A stretch of DNA of 61,910 nt, from contig ONMJ01000009.1 in assembly GCA_900318955.1 (NCBI GenBank), positions 1 through 61,910 on the forward strand, given 5' to 3'. Made by a program: the position numbers and the translations under genes. The stretch is from an uncultured Bacteroidales bacterium. Lineage in GTDB: Bacteria; Bacteroidota; Bacteroidia; Bacteroidales; UBA932. Positions 12,914 through 19,021 of this stretch are shown here, one piece after another; the stretch's first letter is position 1, and every line of letters starts with the position of its first letter. The notes under the pieces were generated by a model. That model worked only from the letters and a program-made list of their open reading frames with translations. It searched no databases and was not told where the DNA came from.

Positions 12914-14098
12914 ATGTACGATTTTGATGAAATAATAGACCGCAGGGGCACCTGGACCGAAAAATATGCCGAATTGAACCTGATGTTCGGCACCGAAGAC
13001 GTGCTGCCCCTTTGGGTAGCAGATATGGATTTCAGGACTCCGGATTTTGTACGAGAGGCTATCCTCAAACGTCTGGAGCACCCAATCCTCAGCTACACTG
13101 TCATCCCTGACAACTACTTCCCGACTATTTCCGCATGGCTGGAGAGACTTCACGGCTGGAAAGTGGATCCTGAGAATATCCGATATATGCCGGGTCTGGT
13201 CAAAGCCCAGGCTATTATCATAAACTACTTTCTTAAGAAGGGCGACAAGATTATCATTCAGCCCCCGGTCTATCACCGCTTTGCCCAGATTCCAAGGACC
13301 AACGGATTCGAGACAGTCGCCAACCCGCTAATCCGGGTGGAGGATGAAGATGGCTTTTTGAAAAGGTACGAGATGGATTTCGACCATCTAGAAAGCATCA
13401 TTGACGACAAGACGAAGATGCTGATTCTATGTAACCCCCACAATCCTTCGGGCCGCGCATGGGACAGAGAGACCCTCACTCGCCTGGCAGAAATCACCAC
13501 CCGTCACGGCATACTGGTCCTTTCGGACGAGATCAACGCTGAGACTGTTTTCTATGGGGAAAAGCATATTCCCTTCGCTTCTATTTCCCCCGAAGCTGCG
13601 GCAAGCTGCATCACTATGATGGCCCCTTCGAAGACATTCAATATCGCGGGAGTTGTCTCCTCTTATATCATTATCTCCAATCCTTCTCTGAGAGACAAAT
13701 TCTTCCAATGGTTGGACGAGAACTCATTCGACCTCCCCACTTTCTTCGCGATTGAGGCTACCCTAGCCTGCTATACAAAGGGATGGGAATGGCGTCAGGA
13801 GATGCTTCGTTATGTCGAAGGCAACATAGATTTCGCTGACCAGTGGATTCGAAAAAACCTCCCGAGAGTCCGCTGCGTAAGGCCCCAGGCCTCGCCTACT
13901 ATATGGCTGGATTGCACCCGTCTTGGCTACTCCCAGCCCGAACTGATGCACAACCTCCTCCACGAAGCGAAGGTCGCCTTCAACGACGGCACCCAGTTCG
14001 GTAAGGAAGGGACCGGTTACCTTCGCATCAACATTGCCGGCCCGAGAAAGGTCCTTCAAGAAGCATTCGAAAGGATCAGATATTCCGGAAAATTTTAG
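12914..14098 (+). CDS. MalY/PatB-type PLP-dependent C-S lyase / aminotransferase
   Basis: 394 residues, fold-type I PLP enzyme. The family start RRGTWTEKYAELNLMFG followed by LPLWVADMDF is typical of MalY/PatB cystathionine beta-lyases. CNPHNPSGRAWDRE and LSDEINAE are the cofactor-ring region, and the Schiff-base lysine is in APSKTFNIAG. The predicted reaction is beta-elimination of cystathionine or related thioethers, in the cytosol. ATG 12914 (MYDFDEII) is chosen over the upstream ATG at 12851, which overlaps dapF. Its stop codon directly abuts the first repeat copy at 14099, so the islet begins at the last base of this gene. Confidence 0.9.
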   Translation: MYDFDEIIDRRGTWTEKYAELNLMFGTEDVLPLWVADMDFRTPDFVREAILKRLEHPILSYTVIPDNYFPTISAWLERLHGWKVDPENIRYMPGLVKAQAIIINYFLKKGDKIIIQPPVYHRFAQIPRTNGFETVANPLIRVEDEDGFLKRYEMDFDHLESIIDDKTKMLILCNPHNPSGRAWDRETLTRLAEITTRHGILVLSDEINAETVFYGEKHIPFASISPEAAASCITMMAPSKTFNIAGVVSSYIIISNPSLRDKFFQWLDENSFDLPTFFAIEATLACYTKGWEWRQEMLRYVEGNIDFADQWIRKNLPRVRCVRPQASPTIWLDCTRLGYSQPELMHNLLHEAKVAFNDGTQFGKEGTGYLRINIAGPRKVLQEAFERIRYSGKF

Positions 14099-14147
14099 CT
14101 TCGTGACATCAAAAAAGGTCTTAAAGAATTGTAATCATTGATGTCAC
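14099..14147 (+). repeat. Islet repeat copy 1 (R1), with internal inverted repeat
   Basis: Begins CTTCGTGACATCAAAAAAG, identical over 19 bp to the start of the small gene at 16957 (bases 16963-16981), then continues GGTCTTAAAGAATTGTAATC, shared with copy 2 at 15540. Read as codons it is LRDIKKGLKEL-stop: the start of the 16957 gene joined to an end resembling its KKGLDK-stop. The arms GTGACATCAA (14103-14112) and TTGATGTCAC (14138-14147) are a perfect inverted repeat around 25 nt. Copy 1 has no promoter or ATG of its own and abuts the malY-like stop. Confidence 0.8.
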
Positions 14148-14159
14148 AGAATACTCGAA

Positions 14160-14184
14160 AGGTCACTTCATGGTGGCCTTTTTT
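14160..14184 (+). terminator. Rho-independent-type terminator after R1
   Basis: Stem AGGTCAC/GTGGCCT (one G-U pair) around TTCATG, followed by six T. Its position after the repeat and its sequence parallel the terminator after R2, so the two look related. Confidence 0.6.
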
Positions 14185-14374
14185 GGACTTGACCAAAATG
14201 GCTTGATGGTTATGACAAAGAAACAGGAAATACAACTTTTTGAAGAGAAAAAGATCCGCACAGTATGGGACGATGTGGCTGAGAGATGGTATTTCTCTAT
14301 AGTTGACGTAGTATCTGTATTGACAGAGAGTAAAGATCCTGCACTGTCTATTGAACAGGCTATTGCCGATTACC

Positions 14375-14399
14375 GACGGCTGGAAAGGCCGTCTTTTTT
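14375..14399 (+). terminator. Rho-independent terminator
   Basis: Perfect stem GACGGC/GCCGTC with a 7-nt loop followed by six T. It separates the Bro-N remnant from the RhuM promoter. Confidence 0.75.
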
Positions 14400-14420
14400 G
14401 CATTCTTTTTCCAGAAGTAT

Positions 14421-14428
14421 TATCTTTG
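14421..14428 (+). promoter_or_regulatory. -7 box of the RhuM-family gene
   Basis: TATCTTTG at 14421-14428, 15 nt before ATG 14444 and just downstream of a terminator. It decides the start: the longer frame from 14351 would cross both signals. Confidence 0.6.
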
Positions 14429-14443
14429 AGAAAATGGTTTGCT

Positions 14444-15466
14444 ATGAGCGCAGAAGATAAAGGAGAGATCATCATTTACCAGTCCGAGGACGGTAATGTG
14501 CAGTTGGATGTCCGACTGGAGAATGAGACGGTTTGGCTGACTCAGGATCAGTTGTGTATGCTTTTCAATAAAGCGAAATCCACAATCAGTGAACATATAT
14601 CCAATATTTTCAAAGAAGGGGAACTCGACGAATCGATGGTTGTTCGGAAATTCCGAATAACCACTCAACACGGTGCCATTGAAGGAAAAACGCAGAGTCG
14701 CGATGTATTATGTTACAATCTGGACGTGATCATTTCCGTGGGCTACCGCGTCCATTCCATCGTTGGTACACGCTTCCGCCAGTGGGCGACCGCTCGTCTG
14801 CATGAGTATATCGTCAAAGGATTCACCTTGGATGACCGGCGGCTCAAAGGGAATGGAGGCGGATTGTACTGGAAAGAACTCCTGGACAGGATCCGGGATA
14901 TCCGTTCTTCCGAAAAAGTCCTGTACCGCCAAGTCCTTGATCTTTATGCCACCAGCGTTGATTATAATCCCAAGGCTGAAGAGTCCGTCCGATTCTTCAA
15001 AATCGTCCAGAACAAGTTGCATTATGCTGCTCATGGGCACACTGCGGCTGAGGTCATCTTCGAAAGAGCCGATGCGGACAAACCTTTCATGGGATTGACA
15101 TCCTTTGACGGTGAGATGCCCACTTTGAAAGACACGCGCATCGCAAAGAATTACTTGAATGCCGATGAATTGAAGGTACTCAACAATATCGTATCCGGAT
15201 ATTTCGACTTTGCGGAAATCCAGGCCATCAGGCATCGGCCGATGTATATGGATGATTATATCAAACAACTGGACGGAATCCTATCGGGAACAGGTGAAAA
15301 GCTTCTAACAGACGCCGGATCCGTCAGTCACCGGCAAGCTATCGAAAAAGCGGAGAAAGAGTATCGTAAGTATCAGGTCAAAACGTTGTCTCCGGTGGAA
15401 GAAGCTTATCTTGACACGTTGAAACAATTGGAAAAGACGGCAAAGGAGAAGAGAGAGAATGAATAA
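14444..15466 (+). CDS. RhuM-family protein
   Basis: 340 residues from MSAEDKGEIIIYQSEDG. The conserved RhuM core is clear: VWLTQDQLCMLFNKAKSTIS with a helix-turn-helix-like N-terminus, then GKTQSRDVLCYNLDVIISVG, RFRQWATARLHEYIVKGF, and a C-terminal Fic-like-in-appearance half (AAHGHTAAEVIFERADADKP, MGLTSFDGEMP). The family was named from Salmonella SPI-3 and is common on mobile islands and in defence regions; its function is not established. The first 50 residues look like a DNA-binding domain. It is the sole intact cargo between repeats R1 and R2. The codon usage is less C-ending than in the flanking genes, consistent with transfer. Confidence 0.9.
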   Translation: MSAEDKGEIIIYQSEDGNVQLDVRLENETVWLTQDQLCMLFNKAKSTISEHISNIFKEGELDESMVVRKFRITTQHGAIEGKTQSRDVLCYNLDVIISVGYRVHSIVGTRFRQWATARLHEYIVKGFTLDDRRLKGNGGGLYWKELLDRIRDIRSSEKVLYRQVLDLYATSVDYNPKAEESVRFFKIVQNKLHYAAHGHTAAEVIFERADADKPFMGLTSFDGEMPTLKDTRIAKNYLNADELKVLNNIVSGYFDFAEIQAIRHRPMYMDDYIKQLDGILSGTGEKLLTDAGSVSHRQAIEKAEKEYRKYQVKTLSPVEEAYLDTLKQLEKTAKEKRENE

Positions 15467-15474
15467 AAGGATAA

Positions 15475-15591
15475 TTGCCAGTTTTTGAAATTATCCGTAT
15501 CTTTGCAACGTATTTCAAAACAGAAAGAAAGTTATGAATCTTCGTGACATCAAGAAAGGTCTTTAAGAATTGTAATCATTCAAGTCTCACA
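15475..15591 (+). repeat. Islet repeat copy 2 (R2): promoter plus micro-ORF MNLRDIKKGL
   Basis: Carries TTG (15475-15477), 20 nt, TATCTTTG (15498-15505), then AGAAAGTTATGAAT and CTTCGTGACATCAAGAAAGG. From about 15490 to 15559 it matches the promoter and start of the 16957 gene (AATTAT-CGTATCTTTGCA and AGAAAGTTATGAATCTTCG are shared). The ATG at 15534 opens only 10 codons (MNLRDIKKGL, stop 15564-15566); one base change from R1 (T for A) creates that stop. After it GAATTGTAATCATT is again shared with R1. Confidence 0.8.
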
Positions 15592-15602
15592 AGGATAACA
15601 AT

Positions 15603-15630
15603 AGGCCACCTTCGGGTGGTTTATTTGTTT
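15603..15630 (+). terminator. Terminator after R2
   Basis: CCACC-TTCG-GGTGG with flanking G-U pairs, followed by TTTATTTGTTTTT. A UUCG tetraloop makes it very stable. It would end transcripts started at the R2 promoter after the micro-ORF. Confidence 0.65.
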
Positions 15631-15654
15631 TTGATATCAAATATACTATATTTG
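15624..15654 (+). promoter_or_regulatory. Promoter of the transglutaminase-like lipoprotein
   Basis: TTTG (15624-15627), 19 nt, TATATTTG (15647-15654): an exact fit to the Bacteroidota pattern. It lies directly in the tail of the R2 terminator, so the cargo gene has a start independent of R2. Confidence 0.65.
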
Positions 15655-15695
15655 CTGAAAATGAGGGAAGTGTCATAAATGTCATTTATCGGATT

Positions 15696-16901
15696 ATGAA
15701 TCAACGGGTTATTGAAGTAGTATTTGTATCTATGCTACTGTTCATTTCTTGTTCCAAGCCAGAAGAGGTTGTCATCAAACTGTATCCGACTCAAGTAAGC
15801 CTGGTCGAGGAGTCCTCAACCCAGTTGCAGGTCACCGTTTCACCGGGGGCCGTGAGTGATTATACGTTGCACTGGGAGTCATCCAGTCCCGTCATCGCTT
15901 CGGTCGCCGACGGTGTGGTCACCGCCCACGCCGCAGGCTCGGCCATCATTACCGTATCCACCCTGGACAAACAGGCTCAGTGCATGGTGACGGTTACCGA
16001 AAAACCGAAACTCGTTACCCGTACAGTTGCTTCCTCCGGAAAGGTTACCAACGGCATCAAACTCACATACTCCGGCACTCAGTTTACCCGGATTTACGCC
16101 GTGTTGCCACGCCCTCAGACCAACGACTATCAAACCATCACAAATTGGGAGGCACCCGGCTGCACCGAAGAGCAATGCCCCGACGGTGTCAATTCATATA
16201 TCTGGAAAGATGTGGATACCCCCTCCATACCCGTTTCCGGGAATTATGTCATTTCCGAAACCTTTGATGCCGAGGTATATCGTGTTGTAGTGGACGTAAC
16301 CCAGCTGACGGATATCCCGGCCTATGACCCGCAGTCCGAGGAATGCCGGAAGTACCTTCAAAAAGAGGCCAACGGTCTCATCGACCCCACCCACAGTAAA
16401 ATTGTCTCTACCGCCAATACGCTTTGGGACAAGGCTGGCGGGGATATCATTGATTATGCCCGCAGATGCTTCCAGTGGACCGCTACAAATATGACGTACG
16501 GGAATATGAATACGGGCCTGCATACCATTGCCAGCCTTATGAACAGCATGACAGGAGACTGCGGCAACTATTCATCCGTATTTATTTCCCTGCTTCGTGC
16601 CAAGGGCATCCCAGCCCGCCATATTGTTATGGTGCATGGCAAACTGGACGAATACCACGTGCGGGCCGAGTTTTTTGTCCCAGGCTTTGGCTGGGTCCCC
16701 GCCGATCCCACTTGGGGCGGGAACAATTTCGGTGTCTTTGACGGAGATTATATCGTGATGACCCGCGGCATCAACAATATCATTCGGGGTCCCGACGGGA
16801 ACGATTTCCTTGCCACCCTTCTCCAGACATCATACTATTGGTACTGGTACCAGACCGAAGGTACTTATTCTTTCCGGCATACCTGTACAGGATTGAAGTA
16901 A
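15696..16901 (+). CDS. Lipoprotein with bacterial Ig-like (Big_2) and transglutaminase-like domains
   Basis: 401 residues. Signal peptide with lipobox FISCS (Cys19). Residues about 27-102 form a Big_2 Ig-like domain (YPTQVSLVEESSTQLQVTVS, ending TISTLDKQAQCMVTV-like; written here from the sequence as IITVSTLDKQAQCMVTV). The C-terminal domain has a transglutaminase/protease-like triad: Cys in TGDCGNYSSVF, His in EYHVRAEFFVPGFGW and Asp in VPADPTWG. It is probably anchored on the cell surface or outer membrane and may cleave or cross-link protein or peptide. It is the only cargo between R2 and R3, with its own promoter. Confidence 0.85.
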   Translation: MNQRVIEVVFVSMLLFISCSKPEEVVIKLYPTQVSLVEESSTQLQVTVSPGAVSDYTLHWESSSPVIASVADGVVTAHAAGSAIITVSTLDKQAQCMVTVTEKPKLVTRTVASSGKVTNGIKLTYSGTQFTRIYAVLPRPQTNDYQTITNWEAPGCTEEQCPDGVNSYIWKDVDTPSIPVSGNYVISETFDAEVYRVVVDVTQLTDIPAYDPQSEECRKYLQKEANGLIDPTHSKIVSTANTLWDKAGGDIIDYARRCFQWTATNMTYGNMNTGLHTIASLMNSMTGDCGNYSSVFISLLRAKGIPARHIVMVHGKLDEYHVRAEFFVPGFGWVPADPTWGGNNFGVFDGDYIVMTRGINNIIRGPDGNDFLATLLQTSYYWYWYQTEGTYSFRHTCTGLK

Positions 16902-16914
16902 TCTGCGCTTTATC

Positions 16915-16981
16915 AAAAATTATTCGTATCTTTGCACCGAATTAATTCAGAAAGTTATGAATCTTCGTGACATCAAAAAAG
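16915..16981 (+). repeat. Islet repeat copy 3 (R3): promoter and start of the intact small gene
   Basis: AATTATTCGTATCTTTGCAC with TATCTTTG at 16927-16934, then CAGAAAGTTATGAATCTTCG and TGACATCAAAAAAG. Matches R2 across the promoter and first codons, and R1 over the 19-bp core. Here the frame continues into the full 94-codon gene. Confidence 0.8.
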
Positions 16982-17241
16982 ACATCGAGTATGTAGTTGG
17001 CGCTTTCGTAGATGACTGCGCGCTTTTCCTTACAGTCAATCCCGGCAAAAACGCTGATGAGATTGCAGATCTCGTAGACAAGGCCGTAGATCTTTACAAC
17101 GACCTTCGCGACAAGGTAAACGCCCCGGCAGAAGGGAACAAGAAAGCTCACTACAATGCTATCCGCAAAGAGATGCTGGAAAAGACAGACGCTCTCTATG
17201 ATGAATTGAGTCAGGCCGTAAAGAAAGGTCTCGACAAGTAA
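16957..17241 (+). CDS. Small helical conserved hypothetical protein
   Basis: 94 residues, predicted all helical and acidic, with no signal peptide or membrane segment: MNLRDIKKDIEYVVGAFVDD, then LFLTVNPGKNADEIADLVDK and a C-terminal helix ending LSQAVKKGLDK. It resembles a small conserved Bacteroidales protein of unknown function that I have seen in other genomes. It has its own promoter (16927-16934) and a strong terminator (17263-17299), so it is monocistronic. Its first eight codons are the sequence repeated at 14099 and 15534. Confidence 0.8.
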   Translation: MNLRDIKKDIEYVVGAFVDDCALFLTVNPGKNADEIADLVDKAVDLYNDLRDKVNAPAEGNKKAHYNAIRKEMLEKTDALYDELSQAVKKGLDK

Positions 17242-17262
17242 TCAAGGTTTGAAACATAATTC

Positions 17263-17299
17263 CCGGCATCCCTCTCTGTAAAGGATGCCGGTTTGTTTT
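17263..17299 (+). terminator. Rho-independent terminator of the 16957 gene
   Basis: Perfect 9-bp stem CCGGCATCC/GGATGCCGG with an 11-nt loop, followed by TTTGTTTT. Confidence 0.85.
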
Positions 17300-17311
17300 A
17301 ATTGTAGTAAG

Positions 17312-19021
17312 ATGAAAAAATTAGCCGCTGTTTTCTTCGCTCTGTCTACCCTTTTAGCAGTCTCATGCAAAAGTGCAACGGAAGATCTCCCTAAGATCAG
17401 GGTCATGTCCTTTAATATCCTCCAATCGAAAGGTGAGCCCGAAGGGCACCAGTGGAAAGACAGAAAGGACGGCGCTCTTGCGATGTTCAAGGATATCGCA
17501 CCGGATGTCGCCTGCTTCCAGGAGGCTAGAAGGACTCAATGCGACGACCTCGCCGAGGCTTTCCCCGAGTACACCCAACTTCGCTGCGCAAAGGACGGTG
17601 TCCTCAAAGAGGGAATGGAAGAATCACTGACGGAAGACCACTACAAGAACGGAGGACAGAGGAACCTCATTATGTTCAAGACAGAGAGGTTTGACCTCCT
17701 GGATTGCGGTCGCTACTGGTTCTCCGAGACTCCCGACAGTTCTTCTCTTGGTTGGGACGGGCCGACCCCGAAGGTGACTCTTTGGGCGAAACTCATGGAC
17801 AAGGTTGCGAATAAAGAGATCTTCGTATTCTGCACCCATTTCTTCCCCCATGGAGTTGAGTGCCGCGAACAGTGCGTCAGGATGACTGTCGATAAGATCG
17901 GCGAAATTGCCGGTTACGAAGGGATTGTTTTCTTCTGCGGCGATCTCAATATGGACGCAGAGGATCCCCGACTTCTGCCGCTCGACAAATATATCACCCG
18001 GACTTCTTTCTCTTCTCCGAAGATAGACCGCTCCCCTACCTTCAACGGATTCAATGACGATCCCTCCACATGGACCCGCATTGACCATATCTACTATTGC
18101 CACATGGCGGCCCTCGAGTTCAAGGTTGTCAACGACATGGAAAAGTATGGGGTAAAGTTCATCTCCGACCATTTCCCCGTCTATGCCGACTTCGAGTATT
18201 TCCGGCCGAGAAAAGAGCAAAATTACTACAACCCTTCTTTCGAATCGGAGTGCGTGGCAAAACTCGATGAATGGACCCCGAAAGACACTGTCATCAAAGG
18301 TTCCACCCAGGGGTTTGCAATCCATGGAAACGACTGCGTCGTCATCCGCGACAAGGGAGAATGCGACATCTTCGACATGGAGAAAAAGGAGATGATAGGG
18401 CATTTCAAGCAGCCGGGAGACACTTCTCACAACAACAACGCCAACTTTGGAACCGAAAGATACTCAGATACTTCCCGTTATCCACTCTTCTATACCTCGG
18501 AGTGCCGCGGCCTCAAGAGGTGCTTTGTAAAGGATCTATCCCTTGACGACGCCCCGATAGTGCAGATGTTCGACTATTACGAGGATGTCTACAACGGGCC
18601 GATGGACTGGGATCTGGATAGAGATAACGGCTTCATATACACCTACGGGGGCGAGAGATTCGGTCGTCGCTGGGTTAGAAAATTCCGCCTTCCTAAATTC
18701 GCCGACAGCGATGCGGAAGGATATGTCCACCTTACGAAGGCAGACGTTCTCGACTCGCTTACAATCGATGACATCGGCATCGCTCAGGGAGGAATTGCCC
18801 GAGGCAAATACTTTTATATTACATCCGGTGCTCCCCCGAGAAAATGCTACATCATGGTAGTCGACCTTGAGACACATGAGACCATTATAAAGCACGACAT
18901 CTCATATATCGGCCTCGAACCGGAAGGAGTAGATCTCGTAGGAGACTATCTATACGTAGTTTTCCATAAGTCAAAAAGACCGAGGAAATCAGAAATATGG
19001 AGATTCAATATCAAAGGATAA
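17312..19021 (+). CDS. Lipoprotein with endonuclease/exonuclease/phosphatase domain and a C-terminal propeller-like domain
   Basis: 569 residues from MKKLAAVFFAL; lipobox LLAVSC (Cys20). Residues about 28-300 form an EEP (DNase I-like) domain: VMSFNIL, ACFQEARR, CTHFFPHG, FCGDLNMDAED, TRIDHIYY and ISDHFPVYADF carry the metal-binding and catalytic Asn, Glu, Asp and His. Residues about 330-569 hold repeated short beta units (FAIHGNDCVVIRDKGECDIF, YLYVVFHK) that look like a small propeller; I do not know this fusion by name. The start at 17285 would lie inside the preceding terminator, so ATG 17312 is used. Likely a surface or periplasmic phosphodiesterase/phosphatase; the substrate is unknown. 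Confidence 0.8.
   Translation: MKKLAAVFFALSTLLAVSCKSATEDLPKIRVMSFNILQSKGEPEGHQWKDRKDGALAMFKDIAPDVACFQEARRTQCDDLAEAFPEYTQLRCAKDGVLKEGMEESLTEDHYKNGGQRNLIMFKTERFDLLDCGRYWFSETPDSSSLGWDGPTPKVTLWAKLMDKVANKEIFVFCTHFFPHGVECREQCVRMTVDKIGEIAGYEGIVFFCGDLNMDAEDPRLLPLDKYITRTSFSSPKIDRSPTFNGFNDDPSTWTRIDHIYYCHMAALEFKVVNDMEKYGVKFISDHFPVYADFEYFRPRKEQNYYNPSFESECVAKLDEWTPKDTVIKGSTQGFAIHGNDCVVIRDKGECDIFDMEKKEMIGHFKQPGDTSHNNNANFGTERYSDTSRYPLFYTSECRGLKRCFVKDLSLDDAPIVQMFDYYEDVYNGPMDWDLDRDNGFIYTYGGERFGRRWVRKFRLPKFADSDAEGYVHLTKADVLDSLTIDDIGIAQGGIARGKYFYITSGAPPRKCYIMVVDLETHETIIKHDISYIGLEPEGVDLVGDYLYVVFHKSKRPRKSEIWRFNIKG

Follow-up and report, generated by a model that had tools for sequence, protein, structure and literature searches.

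The 61,910-nucleotide stretch analysed here, from contig ONMJ01000009.1 of an uncultured Bacteroidales bacterium (hereafter the window), carries between positions 14099 and 17241 three copies of a short direct repeat, the last of which lies within the first codons of a small gene encoding a 94-amino-acid (94-aa) protein. It is very probable, judging from comparison with related genomes, that the region represents a mobile array of integron-like kind, here with two cassettes, which has the 5' end of that conserved small gene as its anchor; this degree of confidence covers the mobile-cassette reading and not the enzyme that would move the cassettes. An earlier note on the window had read the region as the result of serial cassette insertion, and varied cargos, an empty site and the presence of the same cassette across species all support that reading. 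Below, R stands for a repeat copy, G-numbers for genomes and L-numbers for the regions that were fetched around pattern matches.

The same cassettes in different hosts

The mobility of the cassettes is indicated by the same bounded segment being found in different hosts. A cassette of 1996 bp is 99.05% identical from R to R between L069 (G315) and L081 (G276), and is also present in L079 (97.7% over 1930 bp) and L139 (95.0% over 1479 bp); the Xer-like proteins of G315 and G276 are 68.3% identical and the DNA of their small genes, after codon 10, is 65.5% identical. A second cassette, of 5.4 kb, is 98.6% identical between L069 and L136, where the adjoining small genes are 61.7% identical in DNA. 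L136 belongs to the possibly mixed bin G126, with the L136 contig itself holding both the cassette and the gene. This bin contains two small genes that differ from each other (L136 and L080), with 60% and 75% identity to that of the window, and is therefore probably mixed from two species.

Both cassettes of the window have partial counterparts elsewhere. Cassette 2 is matched at 84.8% over 988 bp up to R in L090/L133, from a red-deer assembly, where another cassette takes the place of the gene after the R of the window-type cassette 2, and the Bro-N-like start of cassette 1 aligns with a cassette of L077 at 71% DNA identity for 268 bp, after which there is a jump of ~0.2 kb. The earlier note had suggested looking for empty sites and for different cargos between the same repeats; the latter were seen in other genomes, and an empty site was found in a relative, as L062 and L084 (G019 and G347) share 2162 bp of upstream DNA at 88.2% that ends at R, after which G019 has the gene and G347 has the left end of the 5.4-kb cassette. 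The same bounded segment in different hosts, together with the empty site, makes it very likely on sequence grounds that the cassettes are mobile.

Organisation of the window

The repeat, CTTCGTGACATCAARAAAG, is present in three exact copies at 14099, 15540 and 16963 of the window, with no further copy in the window at up to 3 mismatches and none outside the three in the 2,401,913-base genome at up to 2 mismatches; in 100 dinucleotide shuffles of the window the mean number of copies was 0.05 and none reached 3. The three-copy repeat first reported in the earlier note is thus real, and its description of what the copies share also holds, since R2 and R3 have the promoter and start in common (33 nt at 97%, plus a promoter block of 27 nt at 89%) and R1 and R2 share a distinct right side followed by a terminator (53 nt at 89%, with terminator-like hairpins). 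R1 and R2 continue as GTCTTWAAGAATTGTAATC, then an inverted copy, or a variant, of part of the repeat and then a terminator-like hairpin, and R3, which makes up codons 3-8 of the 94-aa gene, differs from both in its continuation. The two intervals do hold unrelated cargo genes as claimed, one for RhuM and one for a Big_2/transglutaminase protein; cassette 1 also contains a Bro-N-like remnant in front of rhuM. The features, in which ORF stands for open reading frame and UTR for untranslated region, are as follows.

14099..14117, + strand: R1, first repeat copy and left boundary of cassette 1, without promoter and ATGAAT; adjoins the aminotransferase stop codon
14118..14184, + strand: left end of cassette 1, with GTCTTAAAGAATTGTAATC, the inverted copy TTGATGTC (14138-14145) and a terminator-like stem with T run (14160-14184); its first part aligns ungapped with 19 other left ends
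14212..14460, + strand: Bro-N-like gene remnant at the left of cassette 1; start placed by eye, DNA match to the Bro-N cassette of L077
14444..15466, + strand: rhuM, cargo of cassette 1; start placed by eye, the listed ORF running from 14351; PF13310 at E 6e-104, PADLOC PDC-S05
15498..15539, + strand: right end of cassette 1, with the -7 element TATCTTTG (15498-15505), 5' UTR and ATGAAT
15540..15558, + strand: R2, second repeat copy, boundary of cassettes 1 and 2; 15534-15566 is a mini-ORF encoding MNLRDIKKGL and a stop
15559..15621, + strand: left end of cassette 2, with the terminator-like stem GGCCACC-TTCG-GGTGGTT
15696..16901, + strand: cargo of cassette 2, a protein with Big_2 and a transglutaminase core; lipoprotein-like start, by eye
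16927..16962, + strand: right end of cassette 2, with TATCTTTG (16927-16934), 5' UTR and ATGAAT, which now serve the small gene as promoter and start
16963..16981, + strand: R3, repeat copy within the small gene, codons 3-8
16957..17241, + strand: 94-aa anchor gene, predicted three-helix bundle

The right end of cassette 1, taken together with R2, is 98.8% identical over 85 bp to the small-gene promoter block of G049:C97. A search of 13900-17400 against Rfam, with E up to 1, gave no RNA family. Upstream of the array an aminotransferase gene (window 12914-14098) ends directly at R1; its best relatives in 61 same-genus genomes reach no more than 57% identity, and wherever another genome has a match of at least 48%, as seven do, it is on a different contig from the small gene. 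This aminotransferase may have been carried by an older cassette that has since decayed.

The anchor gene

The 94-aa protein is encoded by 53 of the 61 same-genus genomes, and by 25 of 26 genomes with at least 90% completeness and no more than 5% contamination; such wide presence suggests that the gene is important. The repeat falls within its first 25 bases (MNLRDIKK), and in an alignment of 34 homologues M1, L3, R4, K7, K8, D9 and I10 are among the invariant residues, so that coding constrains the DNA sequence at R. The protein is modelled as a three-helix bundle, with a predicted local distance difference test score (pLDDT) of 92.7; a PDB fold search with this model returned no match at E below 0.001, and no Pfam or NCBIfam family scored above its cut-off.

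Arrays in related genomes

Regions were fetched for holding a pattern match, and so the cassette counts given here are not a measure of prevalence. Within these regions 38 R sites open the small gene and 39 do not, one of the latter (L143) being a gene start cut by a contig end, which was left out to give 38 displaced sites. Of the cassettes between these sites 27 are complete; they span 831-7569 bp and come from 19 contigs of 18 genomes, with a maximum of four in tandem (L069, genome G315). The small gene is the last R on all 16 cassette contigs that include it, and within each of the 50 loci all R are on the same strand. By construction every one of the 27 cassettes is flanked by two R, and it is shared homology ending at or near R that provides independent support for them. 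As R is the 5' end of the gene, the cassettes are bounded by direct repeats of the end of their target gene, as is the case in the accretion of cis-mobilisable elements (CIMEs), integrative and conjugative elements (ICEs) and integrative and mobilisable elements (IMEs). The R pattern itself occurs in at least 245 of 400 same-genus genomes and, by reading of the table, at least 27 of these have two or more copies, some of the second copies being on other contigs or in a second small gene.

The left end of the cassettes

The left end, searched for as GACATCAARAARGGTCTTWARGAATTGTAATC with up to 3 mismatches, is present in 20 of the 400 same-genus genomes, with no matches to a reversed-pattern control in the same set. 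A degenerate exact left-end pattern found 15 stretches in a one-genome-per-species collection (84,980 species), all of them titled Bacteroidales or Bacteroidia and all from uncultured or metagenome-assembled genomes; six of the titles mention deer, goat or buffalo and another five have RUG labels, which we take to denote rumen genomes. Fourteen of the 15 were placed in same-genus genomes and one could not be placed. Among 295 sampled genomes of the order, at up to 2 mismatches, no genome but that of the window had the left end; the left-end pattern was not found in viral contigs, nor the R2 junction of the window in plasmids and phages.

At displaced R sites a mini-ORF of 9-13 codons, typically MNLRDIKK-(G/D)-x-KEL, is present in 32 of 38 cases, compared to 0 and 11 in the other frames. 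The 24 distinct left ends fold with a mean z of -2.5, as opposed to +0.6 for 37 gene starts, with single left ends reaching z of up to +0.7 and a hairpin that is not evident at every one. The stretch that follows the mini-ORF pairs with R in runs whose mean longest length is 6.5, against 5.2 when shuffled, and none of 200 shuffles reached 6.5. The core motif of attC sites was not seen by eye in the left ends, many of which pair R with an inverted copy, and no attC model was run. Each displaced promoter would give an RNA of ~100 nt that consists of the mini-ORF, hairpins and terminator (for example window 15534-15621), which is a candidate small RNA or leader.

Promoters and points of exchange

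A TAnnTTTG promoter is found at 37 of the 38 gene sites and at 28 of the 38 displaced sites (Fisher p 0.007). The right end of a cassette supplies the promoter of the gene, and the promoter is therefore predicted to persist in front of the gene but to be under no such constraint at other copies, where it could decay; R1 of the window, which is without one, looks like promoter loss at a displaced copy, and likewise L075, L081:373 and L087:7856. When junctions were compared by eye, both of those of the 5.4-kb cassette locate the crossover within R positions 13-28, the outcome expected of a circle that inserts by one reciprocal crossover, and the right switch of the 1996-bp cassette falls between codons 2 and 3. 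From these alignments the points of exchange appear to lie between the -7 element of the promoter and codon 9.

The search for a recombinase

None of the 69 ORFs of at least 75 aa, which are all those of this size in the 27 cassettes, matches a recombinase, integrase or transposase family of Pfam at E 0.001. At the level of whole genomes no PF00589 match was inside an array (21 genomes), and PF00239 matches occur in 17 of the 25 array genomes with none inside an array, the nearest resolvase match on a contig with R being 18.5 kb away (G038). The integron integrase model TIGR02249 was above its curated cut-off in none of the 25 array genomes, among the matches listed. Many arrays are cut by contig ends, and the search for an integrase-bearing member is not exhaustive.

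Y1 transposases (PF01797), the kind associated with single-stranded DNA elements of the REP/RAYT and IS200-IS605 types, were also not found inside an array in the 25 array genomes, the nearest on a contig with R being 13 kb away (G314). Y1 proteins, mostly of ~290-370 aa, are present in 24 of the 25 array genomes and 18 of 25 comparison genomes (Fisher p 0.049), the latter a small set, hand-picked from genomes with no more than one R match, to which little weight is given. The Y1 transposase is a weak lead to the enzyme that moves the cassettes.

A model for the array and its alternatives

In the model that we propose each cassette runs from R through a fixed left end (the stop of the mini-ORF, a hairpin with an inverted copy of R, and a terminator) to its cargo of one to several genes, and then to a right end with promoter, 5' UTR and ATGAAT. 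Most probably an excised circle would insert by one reciprocal crossover at R in the first codons of the gene, both the circle and the crossover being inferred. The old promoter would then drive the mini-ORF only and be stopped by the terminator, whilst the promoter brought by the cassette would drive the small gene, and later cassettes could insert at any R to give tandem arrays. As to what carries out the exchange, a site-specific recombinase that acts in trans has about an even chance of being responsible, RecA-type recombination across the block from promoter to R has a somewhat smaller but substantial one, and there is a slight chance that the process is something else. A fuller version can be put forward tentatively, in which the locus would be a cassette platform: the first codons of the small gene would serve as a capture site for cassettes insulated at both ends, such that no insertion would silence the gene, and an unrecognised recombinase in trans, possibly acting on folded single-stranded R together with its inverted copy, would move defence candidates and surface proteins.

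Several observations weigh against the mobile-cassette reading. No circle, excision or enzyme has been seen, DDE-type transposases having been looked for within the cassettes only, with none found. The filled site in G347 is soon cut by a contig end, and its gene is not seen there. The relatives are all draft assemblies, in which R is within 500 bp of a contig end in 11 of 61 cases in the array genomes (2.4 expected) and 4 of 16 in other genomes (1.8 expected, p 0.08); this enrichment fits mixed populations and also assembly trouble. A thioredoxin-type cassette in L081 changes its UTR after TATCTTTG when judged by eye, so that the exchange is in the 5' UTR, and this counts against a strict site-specific enzyme because such an enzyme would need later recombination to explain it. 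A change-point scan of 65 junction pairs is mostly no finer than the conserved block from about -45 to +28, and of the six pairs that involve the thioredoxin-type cassette it assigned only one to the UTR. The repeat had been called an att site in the earlier note, and it does bound recurring cassettes, but part of the exchange, by eye, is outside it in the 5' UTR, and neither a recombinase nor a circle was found.

The rival that has the most in its favour is that the locus is hypervariable through ordinary homologous recombination, with the promoter-5' UTR-R block (45-80 bp) as a portable homology arm and no dedicated enzyme. DNA taken up or received by conjugation would undergo RecA-dependent exchange, by which segments between blocks are swapped, duplicated and deleted. 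Exchange points spread by eye over the 5' UTR and R would fit this, as would the absence of recombinase families from the 69 cassette ORFs, and neighbouring R copies have the same codon 3-4 variant in 18 of 27 pairs where 6.8 would be expected, as gene conversion could give. However, the blocks are mostly ~80-94% identical between genomes, which is short and imperfect for efficient exchange across species, the left end was found in this genus only (the one stretch that could not be placed aside), and both junctions of the 5.4-kb cassette, by eye, point to a crossover within one and the same part of R, positions 13-28. We regard exchange without a dedicated enzyme as plausible, with a likelihood that falls short of even. 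Because of the UTR switch seen by eye, the coarse change-point scan and the shared codon 3-4 variants, ordinary recombination between repeated blocks may have contributed within a mobile cassette array too.

Two further alternatives can be considered. The first two repeats could be what is left of duplicated small genes after partial deletion, inherited by descent and not mobile, a possibility that the earlier note had raised; the left end at R2, AAGAAAGGTCTTTAAGAATTGTAATC, does resemble the 3' end of the window's own gene, AAGAAAGGTCTCGACAAGTAATCA, and the first left end may have arisen in this way. As a full account it is contradicted by the 99%-identical cassettes in diverged hosts and the empty site, and the varied cargo in most arrays also speaks against it, which makes it very unlikely. 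It could also be supposed that short-read assemblers had joined unrelated contigs at a shared repeat, given that R is enriched at contig ends and that the relatives are uncultured or metagenome-assembled. The same boundaries nevertheless recur in separate assemblies (L069, L081, L079 and L139 for the 1996-bp cassette), left ends hold their own conserved mini-ORF, hairpin and terminator, and the exact repeat shared within the window is only 19 bp, and we regard an assembly artefact as very unlikely too.

Cargo of the cassettes

Matches to Pfam among the 69 cassette ORFs include nine to Big_2, six to Bro-N, five to peptidase M64 (one of them weak), four to LytTR, four to HATPase and three to RhuM, and genes are found in both orientations within cassettes. 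With PADLOC, at E up to 1e-20, seven ORFs match one PDC-S13 model (Bro-N) and up to four match a PDC-S05 model (RhuM), all of which are to be taken as defence candidates only. RhuM was proposed to be a toxin domain in defence loci in a 2013 analysis (PMC3710099). The Bro-N-like remnant of the window has no Pfam match of its own and its counterpart in L077 is Bro-N. The leftmost ORF in 10 of the 27 cassettes is directed towards R and represents all or part of a Bro-N, RhuM, KilA-N or DUF4325 gene, with L074 being counted among these 10 by 47% identity to a Bro-N protein only.

The 7.6-kb cassette L074:6852-14421 (G017) is unusually long and its cargo is operon-like, with a TetR-family protein, an outer membrane efflux protein, an HlyD-type protein, an ABC ATPase and two ABC-2 membrane proteins. 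In L082:6387-7330 a DUF4325 STAS-like protein is beside a GHKL-type ATPase, and L069:8558-9208 and L071:4121-4465 hold single members of this pair and have weak PADLOC DrmA matches. HepT-like and nucleotidyltransferase genes adjoin in one cassette at L133:5122-5800 (G314), the layout of a known type of toxin-antitoxin pair.

Comparison with known systems

Gene-anchored mobile cassette arrays are already known for integrons and for islands at RNA genes, and searches of the literature turned up no description of the array reported here. In integrons small mobile cassettes with varied cargo are arranged in tandem, with one boundary site each, beside a fixed end. That fixed end is attI, whereas here it is a protein gene; moreover no IntI was above cut-off in the 25 genomes, among the matches listed, and the cassettes measure 0.8-7.6 kb and have genes facing either way. 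SXT/R391 elements likewise insert at the 5' end of a gene, prfC, and bring it a new promoter and start. SXT is one large element with its own integrase, unlike the tandem small cassettes without one that are seen here.

If the reading is correct, each cassette repairs what its insertion breaks, and arrays could therefore grow at little cost. In that case the site could be read directly as a map of the defence and surface genes that uncultured Bacteroidales, many of them from ruminants, exchange with one another, and the array raises the question of what moves cassettes that encode no recombinase.

The closest analogue appears to be the ssrA islands of Dehalococcoides, which are described as being in tandem and bounded by a 20-bp direct repeat of the end of the gene, with 15 islands without an integration module and 16 with a module that includes a serine recombinase, and with mobility inferred from genome comparison (PMC3146451). 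Both systems have tandem elements beside one conserved gene and a repeat that is the end of the gene; the Dehalococcoides repeat comes from an RNA gene, at its 3' end, whilst the one described here comes from a protein gene, at its 5' end, with promoter and start restored by each cassette, and some of the islands have an integration module where none was seen in 27 cassettes. CIMEs have att-like ends without integration or transfer genes and are described as decayed ICEs or IMEs (PMC5704250). The stacking of elements in tandem at one gene is shared with CIMEs and with ICE-IME accretion, and the difference is that no integrase-bearing parent element was found at the site in the arrays examined here. 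The array is set apart from both the ssrA islands and the CIMEs by its promoter-restoring 5' design, by the insulation of its left end and because no member with an integrase was seen among those examined.

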